Origin: Rhodocytophaga rosea
GTDB taxonomy: Bacteria; Bacteroidota; Bacteroidia; Cytophagales; 172606-1
NCBI RefSeq assembly: GCF_010119975.1
Contig: NZ_CP048222.1
Coordinates: 806,001-870,000 of the forward strand
Length of the DNA: 64,000 nt
Direction: 5' to 3'
Each line of letters starts with the position of its first letter. Within the stretch, counting starts at the first letter, position 1. Under the pieces are notes generated by a model. It ran no database searches. It was not told the origin of the DNA and saw nothing but the letters and a program-made list of their open reading frames with translations. Position numbers and translations under genes: made by a program. This document shows positions 46,111-57,697 of the stretch, piece by piece.

Positions 46111-48216
46111 ATGGACAAAAAAACCTGGCAAGAACTATTTCTAAAAGCGACTCAGGCTCATCAGCAAAATAAGTTGACAGAGGCGGAACAGCAATATAGG
46201 CAATTGCTCCAGGTGAATCCTTATCAGGCAGATGTACTTCATTTACTGGGAATTGTTTGCAGCCAGCAAAGCAGGCATGAGGAAGCGATTGCCTATATTC
46301 AAAAAGCCATCCGCTTATATCCGGAGGTGCCTGTATTTTACAATAATCTGGGAGAAGTATTTGCCAGGAAAGGGGAAACAGACAGAGCGATGAGCAGCTT
46401 TAGGAAAGCTATTCAACTGGCTCCGGATTTTGCGGAAGCGCATTATAATCTGGCCAACGTTCTCAAACAAGCCGGCCATTTAACCCAGGCCATCGATTCA
46501 TATACCCGAACCCTGCAACTAAAACCTGTACATATAAAAGCCCTGTATAACCTGGGAAACGCTTATATGGAGCAAGGTCTAATTAAGTCTGCCATGGAAT
46601 GTTACCAGCAGGTCGTGCATATACAACCCAACTTTGCAGAAGCACACAATAATCTGGGAATCGCATGGCAGGAATGGGACAACTGGGAAGAAGCCACTAT
46701 GCATTACCAAAAAGCCACGCTGTTGAATCCGGATTTTTCAGAAGCCTTCCGAAACCTGGCCAGTGCACTGGAAACACAAGGCAAAACTGAGGAAAGTTTG
46801 TTTGTGTACCAGCAGATGGTTAGAAAAGATCCGGCAAATCTAATTACCCGTTTTCAGGCTGATACAATTCCGCCGGTTATCTTCAATTCTGCAGCACAAA
46901 TCCAATCCTATCGTACCGGGTTGCTATCTACCCTTGATTTCTACACTACACAAGACTTTCGCCTGGATCTCAGCAAACTTCAGGATACTTCATTACAACC
47001 TTCATCTATTCTTATTTACCAGGGAGAAAACGACCGCCACATTAAAGAAAAGTATGCAACTGTATTTAACAAGTATTTCACTGGCTATAATCAGGTTAAG
47101 TTTACCAGAAATTCTTCCCTGCCACACATTGGGTTTGTAGTGACGGCCGGACATGAAGGGGTTTTTATAAAATGTATGCGGGGAATATTGAATAATCTTT
47201 CTGATACTCAATTTAAAATTACAGTAATATGTAGTGCGCCAAATGGGGAAAAGATCCTGCGTCCGGCCATCAGCAATCCAGGCGTCCTTTATCTGAGCAT
47301 TCCCAAACGCTTCGACCAGGCAGTGGAAACTATGCAGCTTGCAAAATTTGATATCTTGTATTACTGGGAAGTAGGAACTGATGCCATTAATTATTTTCTG
47401 CCCTATGTACGGATTGCTCCCATACAATGTACGAGTTGGGGCTGGCCAGTTACGAGCGGCATTCCGAATATAGATTATTTTATTTCCAGCAAATTATTAG
47501 AAATACCTCAAAGCCAGGATCAATACAGCGAAAAACTAGTGCAATTTAATCGCCTTCCTGTGTATTATTACTTTCCGCAAGCTCCTGGCCTCATAAGAAC
47601 ACGCTCAGACTTCAATATACCAGAAAAGGCGCATCTGTATGTGTGTACCCAGAATCTTCGGAAAGTTCATCCCGATTTCGATCAGATGATTGCCAGGATA
47701 CTCAGGCTGGATACTCAAGGAATACTTGCTTTCATTTCAGACAAACATACCACGGTTACTGAATTATTAAAAAGCAGATTTGCACAACACTTTCCTGAAT
47801 TAACAGATAGAATACATTTTCTACCCCGAATGGATGAAGACGACTATTTTCAGGTACTTACTCTGGCAGATGTGGTGCTGGATACCCTATATTATGGAGG
47901 CGGTGCCAATACCACTTATGATGCTTTTGCTGTGGGTACTCCAGTAATTACCTTGCCTACTGAATTTCACCGGGGCAGATATGCCTATGCGGCGTATCAG
48001 CAAATGGGTATTGAGAAATGTATTGCTGCTAATTCAAATGAATATGTACAGAAAGCCGTTCGTATAGCTTCCATTCCTGAATATCGGGCAGAAATCAGCA
48101 GAAAGATAAAAGCCGCACATCAGGCTGTTTTTGAAGATAAACAGGCCGTTACAGAATTGTCAGAATGGTTGTTGAGTGTATGGCAAGAGATAAATAAAAT
48201 ATCTTTCGAAAAATAA
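46111..48216 (+). CDS. TPR protein with O-GlcNAc-transferase-like domain
   Basis: 701 aa. The N-terminal 250 residues are about seven TPR units (VFYNNLGEVFARKGETDRAM, AEAHYNLANVLKQAGHL, ALYNLGNAYMEQGLI). A linker then leads to a GT41-like GT-B catalytic part (LPHIGFVVTAGHEGVF, then the C-terminal Rossmann half with DVVLDTLYYGGGANTTYDAF and VGTPVITLPTEFHRGRYAYA), the nucleotide-sugar site of OGT/SPINDLY-type enzymes. It probably glycosylates protein; the target is unknown. The adjoining TIGR03032 gene and the heptamer repeat suggest a co-acting, phase-variable pair (inference). The 3' end is 7 bp from the convergent caspase gene. Confidence 0.9.
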   Translation: MDKKTWQELFLKATQAHQQNKLTEAEQQYRQLLQVNPYQADVLHLLGIVCSQQSRHEEAIAYIQKAIRLYPEVPVFYNNLGEVFARKGETDRAMSSFRKAIQLAPDFAEAHYNLANVLKQAGHLTQAIDSYTRTLQLKPVHIKALYNLGNAYMEQGLIKSAMECYQQVVHIQPNFAEAHNNLGIAWQEWDNWEEATMHYQKATLLNPDFSEAFRNLASALETQGKTEESLFVYQQMVRKDPANLITRFQADTIPPVIFNSAAQIQSYRTGLLSTLDFYTTQDFRLDLSKLQDTSLQPSSILIYQGENDRHIKEKYATVFNKYFTGYNQVKFTRNSSLPHIGFVVTAGHEGVFIKCMRGILNNLSDTQFKITVICSAPNGEKILRPAISNPGVLYLSIPKRFDQAVETMQLAKFDILYYWEVGTDAINYFLPYVRIAPIQCTSWGWPVTSGIPNIDYFISSKLLEIPQSQDQYSEKLVQFNRLPVYYYFPQAPGLIRTRSDFNIPEKAHLYVCTQNLRKVHPDFDQMIARILRLDTQGILAFISDKHTTVTELLKSRFAQHFPELTDRIHFLPRMDEDDYFQVLTLADVVLDTLYYGGGANTTYDAFAVGTPVITLPTEFHRGRYAYAAYQQMGIEKCIAANSNEYVQKAVRIASIPEYRAEISRKIKAAHQAVFEDKQAVTELSEWLLSVWQEINKISFEK

Positions 48217-48223
48217 CCTGACT

Positions 48224-49093
48224 CTAATTCTTCCTTCTGATAAAAATAAAATCTCCTCCTTCGCTGCCAGCCCCAATAATATCGCCATACTGGGGAATCT
48301 GGTTATTGAGGCTGTTGCTGATCACATTTTCTTTCAGGCGGGTGAACAAACGCTCGGCGGTGAGGTAATTGTACTGGTTGGTTTGCAGGCGTTTTACCAG
48401 GTGTTCTATAAATGCACTCTGATCGGGCACTTCTTTCAGCGCACCGCTGGTCATGGCTTTGCGGCTGGGTAGTTCGTAAATTTGCTGGATGGCTTTGGAT
48501 GCCGAAGCTATACTGCCACGGGTTTTAAAAATACTGCCACTGAAACAGGCGTCGGCAATGAGCAAGGTATGCCTGGAACGGATCTGTTTTACATACTCCC
48601 GGATACTGCTATTGGGAATCCAGGTGGCAAAATCATTATTTTTGGCATCTGACGGAATCCAATAGCCAGTTTCAGTAGCTTCATCCCAGGTGCCGTGTCC
48701 GGCATAAAATATTAATACATTGTCGCTGGGCGTTACTTTTTTGGCTAGATCCTGCAATGCCAGAATCAATTCTTCCCGTTTAGGATTTTTAAGTATCGTT
48801 GTATTTTCTGGTTCAAAGGTATACTGCCGTTGTAAAACTTCGGTCAGTTTTCTGGAATCCCGGATAGGATTGTCCAATTTCTGAAACTTTTTATCCTCAT
48901 AATCTTCCACCCCAATAATGAGTGCATAATACTTGCCTTCTTTCACATACTGGGAAATATCGAAATTAATATCTGTGCTGGTGACATCAAAGTTAAACGT
49001 CTGGCTTGTGCCCTGCATATTATCCTGCGCAAATGCCTGAGAAACTGACAGCATCAGGAAAATGACAGCCTGTAAAATAGCGTTGGGTTTCAT
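48224..49093 (-). CDS. Secreted caspase-fold (C14) cysteine peptidase
   Basis: 289 aa with a signal peptide (residues 1-22, AFA-QDN). The peptidase C14 dyad is His133 (IFYAGHGTWDE) and Cys183 (LLIADACFSGSIF). The first strand YYALIIGVEDYED and the substrate-side turn GYWIPSDA match the metacaspase/paracaspase-like bacterial family. It should cleave proteins after basic residues; its export is inferred from the signal. It is the last gene of a four-gene minus-strand operon behind a giant T9SS protein, so processing of that protein is a natural hypothesis. No death-domain or sensor module is present. Confidence 0.9.
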   Translation of the reverse strand: MKPNAILQAVIFLMLSVSQAFAQDNMQGTSQTFNFDVTSTDINFDISQYVKEGKYYALIIGVEDYEDKKFQKLDNPIRDSRKLTEVLQRQYTFEPENTTILKNPKREELILALQDLAKKVTPSDNVLIFYAGHGTWDEATETGYWIPSDAKNNDFATWIPNSSIREYVKQIRSRHTLLIADACFSGSIFKTRGSIASASKAIQQIYELPSRKAMTSGALKEVPDQSAFIEHLVKRLQTNQYNYLTAERLFTRLKENVISNSLNNQIPQYGDIIGAGSEGGDFIFIRRKN

Positions 49094-49133
49094 AGCTTGT
49101 ACCTTCGTTTGTATTTGAAATATACTGTTAATT

Positions 49134-52100
49134 TCATTGCTTCACTATTTTTTGGGTAAACTTCCTGTCTCCGGCAGTTAAAATGAGGTGGTACATGCCA
49201 TCCGGAAGATGAGCCACTTGAATCGTTTGACCTTCCTTACCTCTCTCCCATTCTCCCGACCAGACTGACTTCCCCTGCGCATTATATATTTCAATGTTAC
49301 CCCCCATAATGCCTGATAAATTGAGTTTTGTATGGTCTATTACAATATATTCGATTGTTGGATTGGGATATACCGAAAATCTTTCTTTTTCAGAACCTGT
49401 TTCAAGACCTGTAACGATGGAAGCAGCCGTGACCACACCGACCACCTGGCTGTAAGCTGAGTATACATTATTAAAAGCCCTAATCCGGTAGAAAAACTTG
49501 GTACCACCAGGATCTGTAATGTCTTTGTGGGTATAAGTAGTACTATTTTCTCCAACAGAACCAAGCTCCACAAAAGCAGATTCATCTCCTTTTGAAACCT
49601 CAATAAAATAAGCTGTTTCACTTTCCGAATCATTCCAGGAAAGGATAATTTCACTCTCTGGCTTTAATGGATTGGCTATAGCCGTCAGATTGACTGGTAC
49701 AGAAGGGGCTCCTATTATTTTAATATCCCGGGTAAGAAAATCTATGCCTCCATTATCTTTTACAGTTATCCGGATGGTGACTTCTCCTATCTGATTGGCA
49801 TTGGGTTTAAATTGTAAACTGCCTGTGGTGGCCGGACTGGTATACATTATATTCACATTAGAAATCAAATTCTGATTTCCTCCTGGCAAAATCTGATGAG
49901 TGATAGTAATAGTTTGCCCCGGCTCTCCCCCAGAAGAAATACCAGAGAGTGTAACTGTTTGCAGAGGAACGTTCTGGGCTAGTGGCTGGTCTGAAATGGG
50001 ATTTAAGGTAGGCGCATCATTGATATTGACAATTGTAATGATAAATACCTTCTCAAAGAATAACCCGGCAGCATCGGTGGTACGTAGCCGGATACTATAA
50101 CTGCTTTTTGCCTCAAAATTAAAGAGAACGTTTGTTTGGAGTTGATTGCTTTCAATAACAAAACTGCCATTATCGGTACTTCCGGTACCATCTACCAGTG
50201 AATAGGTATGGGTATTGCCTGCATCGGCATCTATAGTAGTCAGGTTGCCGACAGAAGTCTTGACCGGTTTATTTTCCATCACAGAAGCAGCACTTAAGGT
50301 AATATTCGTGGGTGCATCATTGTCGTCGCTCACGGTAATTACAAAGGCTTTTTCAATATATAAACCGCTGGCATCTGTGCTTCTTATCCGGATACGATAG
50401 GTAGATTTAACTTCGAAATTGAAAGCTATGTTGGCTTTAAGCTTTAATTGTCCGTTTTCGATGATGAAACTTGCATTATCATCATCGGTATTATCAGCAG
50501 CCGTAGCAAACGTATAAGCATGCGTATCACCGGCCGTAGCATCGCTTGTAGCGAAAATACCTACGGCAGCTCCGGTTTGATTTTCTGGAACAGCCGCCGC
50601 AGTGAGTGTCAGGTTGGTGGGCAGCAGAAACAAACGGCTGTAGATTCCCTGCTGGGCATTTACATCGCCATTGCCGCAATCTCCGCCACTGCGCCAGGCA
50701 ATTACAAAATTTCCGGCCATATTCATGGCAAGCGCAGGCTTATCCTGATCTCCTTTGGTATACGAGTTAACCCGGAATTCACTGCTGAGGGCATCTCCAT
50801 TGCTATTGTAACGCCTGGCGATTGCTGAATTACAGGAGCCATCCAGCGGATTGGGTTCCGTATCCGACTCACTCGACCACACGACCGTAAAATTTCCAAC
50901 GGCATCCATAAAAACACGGCTAAACAAGTTATTCCGGTTTACTCCAGTCCATGTATTAATTTTTATAGCTATATTATTTGCCGGATTATCCAGCCTGGTG
51001 CCATTGGCACTAAAACGAGCCCGGAAAATATCGTATCCGGAGGCGCCATTGGTATCTTCAAAATCACTGTCCCATACAATCACAAAATTTCCTACCGCAT
51101 CCATTGCTGCAGAAGGACGACGTTTCACTCCCCTGGTACTGTTAGAACTATCTACTGTAAACTGATTTCCTTGTGCCACACCCAGTCGGTTATATCTTCT
51201 GGCGTATAGTCCCTGGTAAACATTGTAATCCGCAGGATTTTCCTGCCAGGCCACTACAAAATCACCATCCTGATCCATGGCTACTGCCGGATTTCCTGTA
51301 TTAAATCCATCAGGTTCATCAATGGCAAATTCACCACCCTGAGCAATACCAGAAACATTATACCGCTTTCCCCAGATTCTATCATCTCCAACCCATACTA
51401 CTACAAAATCACCATCCGCATCCATGGCTACTTCCGGACTGTCTGGAAAAACTGCTGATGGGCCTATATTGAATTCAGTTCCCTGCACCACACCAGATGC
51501 ATTATACCGCTTTCCCCATAATTGATTTCCGCTCTGCCAGACAACTACAAAATTACCATTCTGATCCATGGCTACCGATGAATTCGTTTGACTCCCGGTA
51601 ATGATGCTGTTTATCCTGAATTCACTGCCCTGAGCAATGCCCGCTGCATTGTAGCGCTGGGCATAGATGTTTGCTTCTCCGGCTGCATCTCCCTCTCTCC
51701 CGGAACTTTGCCAGATTAATACATAATCCCCACTGGCATCCATAGCAGCAATTACACCACTGGTATTACCCGCACTGATCCGTTGATCTGAAGTGGATAA
51801 GGTATAGCGCTGGGCAAAAACATCTTCATTAGACGTAGGACTTAACTGTCCATAGCTACTGTAAGCGATAATAAAATTACCTGCTGCATCTGTGGCCACT
51901 GCAGCTTTTGTCTGCTTACCAGTAGTAAAAGCATTTACTAAAAACTCATTTGCATCTATGGCGTTTCCAGTTCTGGTGTATCTTCTGGTATAGATCCCTT
52001 CCTCTGAGCCATCCTGACCTATGCTTTGCCAAATGATTACAAAGATTCCCCCTTCATCCGTAGCTACTACCGGTCGGCTCTGGTCACTGGTGGTATAGGT

Positions 52101-53225
52101 ATTTACCGGAAATTCACTACCGCCTGTATTATTTACAAATCTTCTGGCAAATACACCTTCTCCTGCACCATCCTGATTAGTGCTCACCCAGGTAATCATA
52201 AAAATACTGGAACCAGCCGTATCTCCGGTTGTTACCGCCACCGATGGCTCCCTCTGGCTGCCAGCCGTAGTTGTATTGACAGGCAGGTCACCGCTTTGGG
52301 CTGTTCCGGCTGCATTATAGCGTTTAGCAAAAATACCATCCCCTGCCCCATCGCTGCTCTGCCAGGCAATAACAAAATTTCCGGTATCATCCATACTGAT
52401 GGCCGGAGCAATCTGGTTGCCAGCTGTAGTTGTGTTCACGACTACTTCATTTGCGGTCTGGGCAGCACCGGCAGCATTATATCGCCTGAGATAAATACCT
52501 GTCCCTGAAGCATCCAATCCTTCCCAGGCCAATACAAAATCTCCATTGCGGAACATGGCTATCGCTGGATTGGTCTGTTCGCCAGTGGTTAGATTATTGG
52601 CTTGAATCACTGGAAGCTGGGCTACTCCAGCGGCAGTGTATCGTTGTGCATAAATACCATTCAGCGAACCATCTTGCCCTTCACTTTGCCAGGTGATTAC
52701 AAAATCACCATCCGCATCCATCGCCACCGCCGGATTTACCTGGTTTCCAGTCGTATAGCCTGTATTCACTAATTTTCCATCCGGATCTAAAGGCTTTCCG
52801 GCAGCATCGTACCGGCGCATATAAATATCGTAACCGGAATTAGCAATCTGGCTGTTGCCTTGCCACACCACTACAAAATCACCATCCGGGTCTACAGCAA
52901 TGGCTGCATTTACCTGATTATTCGTAGTAAAGGAATTAACTTGTATAGGATTTCCTGCAGTTGCTGCGCCAGTCTGAGCCAGGGTTTCTGTAGAGGTTGC
53001 CAGACCGGTTACGAAGGCACTTCCAACAGAAATCAGGCTGAGTTGCTGTTGAAAACGGCTAAGCTGGCATTGCAGGCGGTTGATGCGTTGAAGCAATCCA
53101 TTCCGCTTGTGTGTGGGTAAAGTTTTGAAAGTACCTTTCAACAGTCTACGCTCCAGGCGGTTTTTGCACTTGGCAAACTGTTCTTGTACTTTCCTATAAT
53201 AGATGAGTAGTATTCTTTTATTCAT
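49134..53225 (-). CDS. Giant repeat-rich T9SS-secreted surface protein
   Basis: 1363 aa. The N-terminus is unusually long and basic (RLERRLLKGTFKTLPTHKRN ... QRINRLQCQLSRF) before a hydrophobic signal, a format known from other large exported Bacteroidota proteins. About fourteen units of 50-60 residues follow (AIAVDPDGDFVVVWQ, IYMRRYDAAG patterns) to about residue 870, then two cadherin-like domains (YRIRIRSTDASGLYIEKAF, SIRLRTTDAAGLFFEKVF), a further Ig-like and an FN3 domain, and a T9SS type A sorting domain (RFSVYPNPTIEYIVID) at the end. Repeats with DxDGDF are Ca-binding-like. It is probably an adhesin or matrix protein. Operon with the neighbours at gaps of 28-40 bp. Confidence 0.9.
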   Translation of the reverse strand: MNKRILLIYYRKVQEQFAKCKNRLERRLLKGTFKTLPTHKRNGLLQRINRLQCQLSRFQQQLSLISVGSAFVTGLATSTETLAQTGAATAGNPIQVNSFTTNNQVNAAIAVDPDGDFVVVWQGNSQIANSGYDIYMRRYDAAGKPLDPDGKLVNTGYTTGNQVNPAVAMDADGDFVITWQSEGQDGSLNGIYAQRYTAAGVAQLPVIQANNLTTGEQTNPAIAMFRNGDFVLAWEGLDASGTGIYLRRYNAAGAAQTANEVVVNTTTAGNQIAPAISMDDTGNFVIAWQSSDGAGDGIFAKRYNAAGTAQSGDLPVNTTTAGSQREPSVAVTTGDTAGSSIFMITWVSTNQDGAGEGVFARRFVNNTGGSEFPVNTYTTSDQSRPVVATDEGGIFVIIWQSIGQDGSEEGIYTRRYTRTGNAIDANEFLVNAFTTGKQTKAAVATDAAGNFIIAYSSYGQLSPTSNEDVFAQRYTLSTSDQRISAGNTSGVIAAMDASGDYVLIWQSSGREGDAAGEANIYAQRYNAAGIAQGSEFRINSIITGSQTNSSVAMDQNGNFVVVWQSGNQLWGKRYNASGVVQGTEFNIGPSAVFPDSPEVAMDADGDFVVVWVGDDRIWGKRYNVSGIAQGGEFAIDEPDGFNTGNPAVAMDQDGDFVVAWQENPADYNVYQGLYARRYNRLGVAQGNQFTVDSSNSTRGVKRRPSAAMDAVGNFVIVWDSDFEDTNGASGYDIFRARFSANGTRLDNPANNIAIKINTWTGVNRNNLFSRVFMDAVGNFTVVWSSESDTEPNPLDGSCNSAIARRYNSNGDALSSEFRVNSYTKGDQDKPALAMNMAGNFVIAWRSGGDCGNGDVNAQQGIYSRLFLLPTNLTLTAAAVPENQTGAAVGIFATSDATAGDTHAYTFATAADNTDDDNASFIIENGQLKLKANIAFNFEVKSTYRIRIRSTDASGLYIEKAFVITVSDDNDAPTNITLSAASVMENKPVKTSVGNLTTIDADAGNTHTYSLVDGTGSTDNGSFVIESNQLQTNVLFNFEAKSSYSIRLRTTDAAGLFFEKVFIITIVNINDAPTLNPISDQPLAQNVPLQTVTLSGISSGGEPGQTITITHQILPGGNQNLISNVNIMYTSPATTGSLQFKPNANQIGEVTIRITVKDNGGIDFLTRDIKIIGAPSVPVNLTAIANPLKPESEIILSWNDSESETAYFIEVSKGDESAFVELGSVGENSTTYTHKDITDPGGTKFFYRIRAFNNVYSAYSQVVGVVTAASIVTGLETGSEKERFSVYPNPTIEYIVIDHTKLNLSGIMGGNIEIYNAQGKSVWSGEWERGKEGQTIQVAHLPDGMYHLILTAGDRKFTQKIVKQ

Positions 53226-53253
53226 GGAGAGGCATAGTCCAAGGAGTGAACTG

Positions 53254-53988
53254 TTACTGTACTGTTTTGATCTCTACTTCGTTATTGCTGTAAATGGGTG
53301 TTGTAGAACCTGTAGGGATGATATATGCCCTCACATAATAGGTAGTTCCGGCTGCAAGTCCGCTTATGTTGGAGGTAAATCCTTGTGCCGCTGTTAATGC
53401 ACCAAGTATAGTCTTGGGATCTGTTATTTCCGGGGTCGGCTCAGCTGACCAGCAATGTCCATGTTCCTGGATAGCACCACCCACTGCAGCCAACTGGTTT
53501 TCTGAAACTGACCCTAAAGCTGTAGCTGTGGTTTTGCTGATATTATTTACCTGTGCAGAAAAAACCGGAGTAGTAATATCTCCTACATTGAAAGTGTATT
53601 GTTTACCATATTTCACTTCGCTGTCAGTTTTTGCATAAGCCCGGTAAGCATACGTCTCTTGTTTCTCTAATCCATAAATTTTCCTTTCGAATTCACCAAC
53701 TTCTGCGGAAGCACCCTGACCTGCCAGAATATTTTTAACATTAGGAGTTTCTAAGGTTAAATTCAAGCCGGGAGCAGAAATACTATAACAAAAGCCATAA
53801 TTAGTAACCTTCAAATTACCAACATCTAGGATAGCACCTTTCAGGGTAGCTGCATCTGAGAATTCCGGCCGATCCACCCCTTCATTGGTTACTACAATCA
53901 ACACATGGTCGTATTCCATCTCTTCGCAGGCGGTAACAATGCATATTAGGAAGCATAAAATCAGGGTATATATTTTTTTCATAATCAA
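53254..53988 (-). CDS. Lipoprotein with two FN3-like domains
   Basis: 244 aa. The lipoprotein signal ends in VTAC (Cys21). There are two beta-sandwich domains, each with a Tyr/Cys/Gly-rich core (VTNYGFCYSIS, YAYRAYAKTDSEVKYG; then GGAIQEHGHCWSAEP, TTYYVRAYIIPTGSTTPIYS). This is the pattern of Bacteroidota FN3-like lipoprotein repeats. Two starts (ATG 53988 or 53982) are possible. It precedes the T9SS giant by 28 bp and follows the membrane protein by 30 bp. A role as surface partner or anchor is inferred. Confidence 0.82.
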   Translation of the reverse strand: MIMKKIYTLILCFLICIVTACEEMEYDHVLIVVTNEGVDRPEFSDAATLKGAILDVGNLKVTNYGFCYSISAPGLNLTLETPNVKNILAGQGASAEVGEFERKIYGLEKQETYAYRAYAKTDSEVKYGKQYTFNVGDITTPVFSAQVNNISKTTATALGSVSENQLAAVGGAIQEHGHCWSAEPTPEITDPKTILGALTAAQGFTSNISGLAAGTTYYVRAYIIPTGSTTPIYSNNEVEIKTVQ

Positions 53989-54018
53989 TAAATAACATTG
54001 GATCAGGTATCACTCGAA

Positions 54019-54813
54019 TCAAAATTTATACTGGAAACCTATGCTTGTGCTTTGAAATACAGGATCGTAGTGGAATTGAAAACCAGTCTGAGTTCGCTTA
54101 CTCCGGATTTTGCGCTGAATCTGCTGGTTGCGGGTGCCCCTGATGGCAACTAAGGCAATATCTGTAAGCCAGATAGCAGCCGCCGCACGGGTGAGGTAGA
54201 TATAATTACGCCGCTGGTTATTGGCTGCTGTATAGTTATTTTGTACATCTGTTAAGGTTTCTGAAGCTTTGTATTGCTTGTATTTTTTATTAGCTCCTAT
54301 TTTAAATGCGATGCCTGTTCCCATCATTCCCACGGCTACTGCACCTATGGCCCAATATCCCTTGCCTTCCCGCACTTTGTAATCGCCTAAACCAGGCAAT
54401 AAAAGAGATAACAAGGCTTTGTCGGCTCCACCTAATTTCAACAATCTGTCTTCCCGGAATTTTACATCTATATTGGCAACAAGCTTGAACGTTACATTTT
54501 TGCCATCAAAGGAAGGATATTCCTCCAGGCAGTCCCAGGTAGCGATTTTACCTTTTCCCGGCCGGATGCCTTCCCCCAAATCACCATCTATGTATTTTAA
54601 TGGTCCCTTCAACGTGATACCTCCATCCTGGGAGAAATATAGGTCTACTGTATATTTATCGTACTTACCCTGGCGGGCGGTCATATCATAGGTGATATCT
54701 ATGGTCCGGTCGAAAGGATCTAGGGATGCCTGAATATTAGTGATCTGCTGCGCCTGCATCCATGCTGGCATCAATAAAAGAGCAAATAGCAGCAGAGATA
54801 AAACATGTTTCAT
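54019..54813 (-). CDS. Ig-like plus membrane protein, first gene of caspase operon
   Basis: 264 aa. Signal peptide to about residue 21 (MQA-QQI). An N-terminal Ig-like domain (ITNIQASLDPFDRTIDITYD, VDLYFSQDGGITLKGP, GKGKIATWDCLEEYPS) is of the type found next to or fused to caspase-fold proteins in Bacteroidota. Then follow hydrophobic segments (ALLSLLLPGLGDYK, YWAIGAVAVGMMGTGIAF, TRAAAAIWLTDIALVAI) separated by a helical region. The end (FQFHYDPVFQSTSIGFQYKF) looks like a beta-barrel strand. No enzyme motif. It leads a four-gene operon with its own promoter about 135 bp upstream. Confidence 0.8.
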   Translation of the reverse strand: MKHVLSLLLFALLLMPAWMQAQQITNIQASLDPFDRTIDITYDMTARQGKYDKYTVDLYFSQDGGITLKGPLKYIDGDLGEGIRPGKGKIATWDCLEEYPSFDGKNVTFKLVANIDVKFREDRLLKLGGADKALLSLLLPGLGDYKVREGKGYWAIGAVAVGMMGTGIAFKIGANKKYKQYKASETLTDVQNNYTAANNQRRNYIYLTRAAAAIWLTDIALVAIRGTRNQQIQRKIRSKRTQTGFQFHYDPVFQSTSIGFQYKF

Positions 54814-54947
54814 ACAGGTAATAAACAGAAGTGATAGCTATGAGTAGGTTCACTAACTTGTAGTAACACTCTAAAGGCTTGATATTATAATAAGTAAGTA
54901 GGATAAATATACTAAAAATGCAGGTATGATTTTTTGGCGCTGGCTAA

Positions 54948-54979
54948 CAAATGTATTTTAATTTAGTTCTCCTTACAAT
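54948..54979 (-). promoter_or_regulatory. Promoter of the caspase/T9SS operon
   Basis: On the minus strand ATTG (54976-54979), 20-bp spacer, TACATTTG (54948-54955). The -7 box is exact and the -33 box has one mismatch. It predicts a leader of about 125 nt before the ATG at 54813. The remainder of the 366-bp gap (54814-55179) shows no gene. Confidence 0.62.
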
Positions 54980-56583: not shown

Positions 56584-57039
56584 TTAACTCATTTTCAACC
56601 TGGGATCAAAAAAGACCGGCTCTGTTTTCAGGATTTTTATCTTTGAATGATCTTGGTGCAAAGGATTGAGCAATACATTGTATTCATTTACCGATTGTGC
56701 GGAAGGAACCCTTAAACAAGCATATTCTAACCCTTTGATCCAGGTTAATGCTATTTCTGCCAGTGCTTCCGGATAATTAATATCCTGCCAGTTCTGGGGT
56801 AATAGAGTCACATCAATAGTTTGAACAGGTATTTTATCGGGAATTTTCAGCGTCAGTAAGTGCATATTCGGAGGAATAATTCTGTAATTGGCCAGTATTT
56901 CTAACTTTGCCAGCGACACAGATTCAGAAGTATAGATGATACGTGTTCCCTGCTTATGCCATCTTCCGCTGCCAAACAGTCCTCCTGTTCCCGATAAATC
57001 CTGTATATAAGCGGCTTTGCCTATTCTGTAAACAATCAC
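56584..57039 (-). CDS. RES-domain toxin of a Res-Xre type II toxin-antitoxin pair
   Basis: 151 aa from a GTG at 57039 placed 13 bp after the antitoxin stop. The RES fold residues are readable: VYRIGKAAY, GSGRWHKQGTRIIYTSES (Arg and Tyr) and LAKLEIL (Glu). RES toxins degrade cellular NAD+ in an ADP-ribosyltransferase-like fold. Length and layout are standard. Translational coupling to the antitoxin is likely from the short gap and weak start. Confidence 0.9.
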   Translation of the reverse strand: MIVYRIGKAAYIQDLSGTGGLFGSGRWHKQGTRIIYTSESVSLAKLEILANYRIIPPNMHLLTLKIPDKIPVQTIDVTLLPQNWQDINYPEALAEIALTWIKGLEYACLRVPSAQSVNEYNVLLNPLHQDHSKIKILKTEPVFFDPRLKMS

Positions 57040-57052
57040 TATTCAATTCTGT

Positions 57053-57493
57053 TTAGGAATAATGGCCATATTCAATCCGGGTGAGAATATCTTTGATTTT
57101 TGCCCTTCCTATCGACGACCACAATAATTCAATCGGTTTCTGATTTCCCAAGGGAGGTAAAGACGTATGAAGCCACTGTTTAAATAATTCTACCGACTCA
57201 TACACATCCATGCCATGGGCTATTACTTCTGCAATCCCAATAAGCCTATCGGTTTCTTCCCGTGTCAGGGTTTGTTTGCTTGCTTTATACCTCCGCAGCA
57301 AGGTACTCTCCGAAATACCCATCATTTCAGATATTTCTTTGTGTGTAAAACCCATCAATTGTTGCATGGCCCGCAAAGAAGCAATAGGCTGGCCGGAAGA
57401 AACTACATGATATAAGCTAACGTCGGTTGCCTGGCTGGCTTTTATCTGCTTTCCCTGGCCTACTACATGTAAAACCTGTGCTGTTGTAATCAT
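57053..57493 (-). CDS. Xre/MbcA/ParS-type antitoxin of the RES toxin
   Basis: 146 aa from the ATG at 57493 (a TTG 15 codons upstream is weaker and would run into the operator). The N-terminal half holds a helix-turn-helix-like region (GFTHKEISEMMGISESTLLR), and the C-terminal half is the DUF2384 toxin-binding domain (TDRLIGIAEVIAHGMDVY, QWLHTSLPPLGNQKPIELL). It neutralises RES and represses its own operon. Order antitoxin then toxin is typical. Confidence 0.92.
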   Translation of the reverse strand: MITTAQVLHVVGQGKQIKASQATDVSLYHVVSSGQPIASLRAMQQLMGFTHKEISEMMGISESTLLRRYKASKQTLTREETDRLIGIAEVIAHGMDVYESVELFKQWLHTSLPPLGNQKPIELLWSSIGRAKIKDILTRIEYGHYS

Positions 57494-57521
57494 AAAATAC
57501 TTGCATTTGACAATATGTATA

Positions 57522-57535
57522 CCTTCAATTGAAGG
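57522..57535. promoter_or_regulatory. Perfect 14-bp palindrome, likely antitoxin operator
   Basis: CCTTCAATTGAAGG at 57522-57535 is a perfect dyad, 29 bp upstream of the antitoxin ATG. Placement and symmetry fit autoregulation by the antitoxin. Confidence 0.72.
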
Positions 57536-57697
57536 CAATTTAAATCATTAACAGGTAAGCTGCAAGTAAAGTTTTGTTATTAGTGTTTTCTGCATACATA
57601 TTCTACGGATTTACTTTTCACTAAAGATAACTGCCATTCCTAAAAACCGTACAAATAGAAAACTTCTGCCCCTATCAACTGAAATTACTGAATATTA

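Follow-up and report, generated by a model that had tools for sequence, protein, structure and literature searches.

Gingipains and PorU are secreted enzymes of clan CD. The Rgp gingipains, which are caspase-fold Arg proteases, are needed for the polymerisation of Mfa1 and process FimA (PMC5954841). Excerpts of a 2012 survey likewise describe exported metacaspases: 98 homologues form a membrane class, most of which begin with a helix, possibly a signal peptide, and of 217 metacaspase operons 16 have surface functions and 14 carry OmpA (PMC3501461). Such exported bacterial caspase homologues are common, and almost no role has been assigned to them. Here we describe a 64,000-nucleotide stretch (the window) of the Rhodocytophaga rosea genome, a single contig of 8.98 Mb (NZ_CP048222.1, positions 806,001 to 870,000; order Cytophagales), in which four genes encode, in order of transcription, a protein with an Ig-like N-terminal domain (the N-domain protein), a lipoprotein, a 1363-amino-acid (aa) cargo protein of the type IX secretion system (T9SS), and an exported caspase-fold peptidase of family C14. 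We propose, with a probability of roughly 0.4, that this locus represents an envelope cassette which recurs in Bacteroidota and whose exported Arg/Lys peptidase processes a product of its own operon, the N-domain protein serving as platform or first target.

Results

The four-gene locus

The features of the locus are as follows.

48224..49093, minus strand: exported caspase-fold peptidase, family C14, 289 aa (PF00656 match at 1.3e-21, active site, core of the structure model, hydrophobic N-terminus)
49134..53225, minus strand: T9SS type A cargo, 1363 aa (Pfam and NCBIfam domain matches, repeats)
53254..53988, minus strand: lipoprotein, 244 aa, with two FN3-like modules (lipobox VTAC/EEMEYD, domain scans)
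54019..54813, minus strand: N-domain protein, 264 aa (Pfam and sequence; constant partner of the caspase across loci)
54948..54978, minus strand: promoter-like site of the Bacteroidetes type, TTG-N20-TACATTTG (sequence; weak)

The coordinates of the open reading frames (ORFs) confirm an earlier preliminary description of four minus-strand genes with short gaps; these are 40, 28 and 30 bp, too short for any extra gene, and the flanking genes on either side lie on the opposite strand. Export features are present on all four products, which are therefore predicted to leave the cytoplasm. The promoter-like site that the genes had been said to share is present, but its pattern occurs eight times in the window where 4.6 are expected; because this is chance frequency, the site is no evidence by itself, and we rejected it as support for an operon.

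An exported C14 peptidase

The 289-aa protein scores 77.8 bits against Pfam PF00656 (Peptidase_C14; cut-off 21.4) and has the catalytic pair His133 and Cys183 in the motifs FYAGHGTW and DACFSG (HG, DxCxSG), with active-site residues that are invariant among close relatives. It begins with a hydrophobic, signal-peptide-like segment, MKPNAILQAVIFLMLSVSQAFAQ, and itself has no T9SS sorting domain. The caspase fold, the His/Cys pair and the signal peptide that had been read from the sequence at the outset were thus all recovered. Family scans gave matches to C14 and related clan CD models and none to C25, PorU or the transglutaminase-like LapG, placing the protein outside the gingipain, PorU and LapG types; against NCBIfam NF047832 (EACC1-associated caspase) it reached 93.7 bits, below the curated cut-off of 140.

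The S1 residues of the metacaspase TbMCA2 are Asp95 and Asp211 (PMC4357240). Two conserved acidic residues of the S1-pocket type in the window peptidase, Asp79 and Asp181, align with them, which, judged by alignment alone, fits the metacaspases/orthocaspases (C14B) and suggests cleavage after Arg/Lys; such a preference is plausible. The core of a structure model matches MALT1 paracaspase and metacaspases; since its mean predicted local distance difference test score (pLDDT) is 64.7 and its C-terminal parts are poor, the model is silent on activation. The generic caspase model of PADLOC also matches the peptidase (57 bits). It is the only such model to do so, the export segment is present and no defence gene was found among the operon proteins, so the locus does not qualify as an anti-phage caspase system.

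Recurrence of the cassette

An N-domain profile (A3) matched 45 of 194 genomes sampled from the order, and PF00656 matched 114 of the 194. The surroundings of the resulting 67 N-domain loci were searched with a C14 profile made from the loci themselves, the window not being counted. At 25 of the 67 a C14 gene lies downstream on the same strand, at a distance of ≤7 kb, where 0.35 would be expected from the genome-wide C14 density, doubled because PF00656 is the less sensitive profile; several loci come from related species and so are not independent, and the linked ones span seven families of the order. Counted by position, 26 C14 genes were downstream on the same strand, 3 upstream and 1 on the opposite strand. 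By a simple hydropathy rule rather than a trained predictor, every one of the 25 linked caspases begins with a hydrophobic stretch, and His and Cys are retained in 19 of 19 aligned caspases (that of the window and 18 adjoining N-domain genes).

The exact order of the four genes recurs in two further families. L126 (N-domain protein, 266 aa; lipoprotein, 244 aa; T9SS cargo, 1147 aa; caspase, 292 aa) and L162 (257, 248, 1298 and 304 aa) correspond to the window (264, 244, 1363 and 289 aa) in all four genes, of which the first, second and fourth encode homologous proteins; the caspase scores 333 bits in L126 and 264 bits in L162. A further locus, L128, shows genes one to three in the same order, and there its contig ends. 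The window's own genome holds two more N-domain/T9SS cargo/caspase operons, which end in C14 paralogues (25-29% identity): L048 (N-domain protein, proteins of 357 and 1085 aa, caspase of 310 aa) and L049 (N-domain protein, 1627 aa, caspase of 307 aa). An operon-like unit, as first proposed, is therefore supported at the sequence level by the same order in the distant L126 and L162 and by the recurrence of N-domain/T9SS cargo/caspase operons. Another arrangement is that of L010, L011, L012 and L015, in which the N-domain protein is encoded upstream and an FN3-like lipoprotein downstream of the peptidase, with no T9SS giant between.

Beyond the order, a second N-domain profile (A4) matched 40 of 395 genomes of the phylum, and 20 neighbourhoods were examined. 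In other classes a C14 gene adjoins the N-domain gene in L213, L214, L216, L220 and L221 and lies five genes on in L215 (6 of 20 loci); at several other loci among the 20, T9SS cargo adjoins the N-domain gene. Cassettes pairing N-domain protein and caspase are also found in metagenome-assembled genomes (MAGs) labelled Bacteroidales, Bacteroidetes and Geobacter, and homologues of the window peptidase (44-57% identity) occur at nine loci outside the family, L010, L011, L012 and L015 among them, in MAGs labelled Bacteroidales, Bacteroidetes, Bacteroidia, Geobacter and Deltaproteobacteria, labels that can be wrong. Throughout, the N-domain protein and the exported caspase are the constant parts of the cassette, the lipoprotein and T9SS cargo are frequent, and the identity of the cargo varies.

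Might the four genes be neighbours by chance rather than a unit? The promoter motif at chance level would fit, as would the state of the closest relatives: an orthologue of the peptidase is lacking in all seven other genomes of the family. The synteny that had been put forward as a check thus held in two other families and failed within the window's own. The same order recurs so far beyond chance that, at the level of gene order, mere adjacency is refuted, and we consider it exceedingly improbable.

Two further explanations were weighed. The peptidase could be an ordinary secreted digestive protease, its neighbours merely co-regulated with it during surface-attached growth; many hydrolases are secreted by Cytophagales-type bacteria, and the cargo is free to vary. 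Against this, the caspase gene keeps its place and strand downstream of a single rare gene family across seven families of the order, and the protein lacks a sorting domain that would take it into the medium; we think this rather unlikely. It could instead be an effector of envelope stress, cell death or defence, co-encoded with surface proteins as sensors. C14 proteins are known in death and defence, the PADLOC caspase model matches, and some N-domain proteins beside a caspase carry an FGE-like domain (L009, L213, L214); with a hydrophobic export segment on every linked caspase, and with scans of the operon proteins that recognised no defence partner, this role seems about equally doubtful.

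The N-domain protein and the lipoprotein

The N-domain protein consists of a signal peptide, the Ig-like N-domain (approximately 95 aa), a DUF5683-like region with two hydrophobic helices and a C-terminus ending in ...SIGFQYKF. Its score against DUF5683, 26.4 bits, falls just below the Pfam cut-off of 26.7, which the homologue in L172 passes (27.6). This protein and most homologues of the DUF5683 type end in ...IGFQYKF, a motif resembling those of outer-membrane proteins, though just two hydrophobic helices are predicted; the structure model of the N-domain protein (mean pLDDT 45) is too poor to use. An Arg in the linker, shared by the N-domain proteins of the window, L126, L128 and L162, was considered as a general cleavage site and rejected, being absent from other N-domain proteins. 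L009, L213 and L214 encode, immediately 5' of a C14 gene, a fusion of the N-domain to an FGE-type domain; one such fusion, next to the peptidase gene in the same way, is on a Geobacter-labelled contig. The arrangement in L009, L213 and L214 mirrors known metacaspase-FGE fusions. In the family of the window, the N-domain gene usually lies 5' of a giant Big_5 repeat protein, with no caspase (L052, L053, L056-L062).

As the constant partner of the caspase, the N-domain protein invites comparison with a release switch, in which it would hold a periplasmic peptidase inactive until a signal leads to a surface protein or lipoprotein being cut loose. In outline the parts are those of LapA/LapG/LapD: a giant adhesin, a periplasmic cysteine protease and a membrane protein of which one domain is periplasmic (PMC3032545). 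A Pfam scan recognised no cytoplasmic signalling domain in the N-domain protein, however; the LapG fold is not that of a caspase; and sorting of T9SS cargo depends on the C-terminus, while the target of LapG is an N-terminal retention region. We judge such a switch unlikely.

The lipoprotein contains its FN3-like module as two matching stretches. Its ORF begins with TTG; an ATG 6 bp inward, at 53982, is the likelier start and gives a gap of 36 bp. Homologues occupy the equivalent position in L126, L162 and L128 and adjoin the caspase in L010, L011, L012 and L015.

The T9SS cargo

The 1363-aa protein comprises a basic N-terminal extension, a signal-like segment, approximately 10 spaced repeats of the DxDGDFVVVW type, two cadherin domains, an FN3-like domain and, at the very C-terminus (aa 1285-1363), a T9SS type A sorting domain (Pfam, 45 bits against a threshold of 27, 1.3e-11; TIGR04183, 46.1 against 23, NCBIfam 3.7e-12). 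Within the first 85 codons the basic extension takes up approximately 65 aa ahead of the signal-like hydrophobic segment. The same genome encodes PorU (1434.7 bits) and hence, as judged from this component, a T9SS.

No full-length relative of this cargo was found among the genomes searched. The third proteins of the window, L126, L162 and L128 are unrelated beyond their sorting domains and one FN3-like stretch, consisting of cadherins and DxDGDF repeats, a beta-helix, LDL-receptor class B repeats and a DUF5122 propeller, respectively. Across cassettes the cargo types are cadherin, beta-helix, propeller and FG-GAP, and cargo is often absent. In a second group (L048, L049, L123, L124, L125, L127) the cargo proteins are alike over their last several hundred residues (approximately 25-36% identity) and differ ahead of these; a phylum-wide search for this module started from a stretch with Big_5 repeats, may have drifted and serves as a hint only. 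In L176 (7211-8800) and L227, N-domain and T9SS sorting domain are fused in one protein. The sorting domains of the cargo in L048 (6323-9580) and L123 (1252-5886) resemble PorU's own C-terminal domain, unlike the usual type A tail.

This last resemblance raises the idea of a dedicated sortase, a small PorU counterpart that would remove the C-terminal sorting domain of the cargo and join the cargo to an envelope anchor, all the more as PorU is itself a caspase-fold enzyme with sortase-like action (PMC4560394). The genome already has a full PorU, though, and the operon caspase belongs to C14 rather than C25, lacks a sorting domain to reach the surface and is also found without any T9SS cargo; we hold a sortase role to be improbable.

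Surroundings of the locus

A TPR protein whose C-terminal half is of glycosyltransferase family 41 (OGT-like) is encoded convergently (46111-48216, plus strand), 7 bp from the operon end, and a RES-domain toxin-like gene with an adjoining Xre/MbcA/ParS-type antitoxin gene lies at 56584-57538 (minus strand). Two flanking genes were sought as landmarks for an empty site in the family: the PAP2 gene has paralogues, none with shared context, and the TPR/GT41 gene gave no clear orthologue. A plasmid search returned distant matches alone, below 35% identity, among the matches listed.

Discussion

In the explanation that we favour, an N-domain membrane protein, a variable load (a lipoprotein and/or a T9SS-exported protein) and the C14 peptidase would be produced together. 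The peptidase would most likely act in the periplasm or at the outer membrane, cutting after Arg/Lys and so trimming or maturing a product of its own operon; the N-domain protein, as platform or first target, would keep it beside its substrate. That this product is a surface fibre, as in the preliminary description, is a guess.

The repeat protein that had seemed the obvious substrate has lost that standing: cargo is the least conserved gene of the cassette, and many loci with N-domain protein and caspase have none. Because N-domain protein and caspase are constant and the cargo varies, a caspase dedicated to the repeat protein is unlikely, and a closer tie to the N-domain protein is suggested.

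Several observations count against our explanation. N-domain/caspase pairs occur without T9SS cargo (L136, L138, L141, L010-L015, L216, L220, L221), and since cargo is absent from many such loci it cannot be the general substrate. Conversely, because caspase-free operons of N-domain protein and cargo are common (L052, L053, L056-L062), the caspase is not essential to them. No basic cleavage site conserved across the N-domain proteins was found. Distance matrices of N-domain protein and caspase are correlated over all loci (rho 0.40), a significant result that is lost once close relatives are removed (rho 0.04, p 0.42), so that we rejected co-divergence; either new pairings of the two have arisen or the signal has reached saturation.

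More tentatively, and with less confidence than in the favoured explanation, a phylum-wide envelope proteolysis system is possible, in which the N-domain protein recruits the caspase to an exchangeable surface load, T9SS cargo or lipoprotein, encoded between them; a single fixed processing module would then serve whatever load is present.

Exported caspase homologues being already known, export is not what is new; the recurrent cassette is. The window peptidase is accordingly no exception of the kind first supposed, given the 98 membrane-class sequences in the survey excerpts and the secreted clan CD enzymes among gingipains and PorU. No description of the cassette was found in open papers on metacaspases and type IX secretion, on DUF5683 or on caspase and T9SS operons, most subscription papers being outside the search; the window holds an exported orthocaspase in a recurrent envelope operon that is apparently unreported. 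Its conserved context supplies a concrete set of partners for an exported caspase, namely N-domain protein, lipoprotein and T9SS cargo. If our explanation holds, (i) at least one class of bacterial caspases would shift from presumed cell death to the processing of envelope proteins, and (ii) a dedicated protease would be added to T9SS surface biology beyond PorU and the gingipains.

Comparison with known systems

Sequence cannot decide between a gingipain-like, a LapG-like and a PorU-like mechanism. LapG/LapD/LapA resembles the cassette in bringing together a cysteine protease, a membrane partner and a giant surface protein (PMC3032545); it differs in protease fold and secretion route, and the cassette has no recognised cytoplasmic control by cyclic di-GMP. 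The PorU sortase is likewise a clan CD enzyme working on T9SS cargo, and some cassette cargo has PorU-like C-terminal domains (PMC4560394), but PorU is of a different peptidase family and is a single housekeeping gene, separate from the cassette in this genome.

With prokaryotic metacaspases and orthocaspases the window peptidase shares the C14 fold, the His/Cys dyad, acidic S1-type residues and an N-terminal export segment, and some of the operons in the survey excerpts carry cell-surface proteins or OmpA, as surface proteins are encoded here; unlike this cassette, none of the operons in those excerpts has T9SS cargo or an Ig-like N-domain protein (PMC3501461).

RgpA and RgpB of Porphyromonas gingivalis are of family C25, as against C14, and are themselves T9SS cargo, whereas the window peptidase has no sorting domain. 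To our knowledge, gingipains are not encoded in one operon with their substrate. They are, like the window peptidase, exported caspase-fold cysteine proteases of Bacteroidota, and they act on surface lipoproteins or fibre subunits (PMC5954841). By analogy, the nearest functional precedent for the cassette peptidase would be the processing of fimbrial subunits by the Arg-gingipains.

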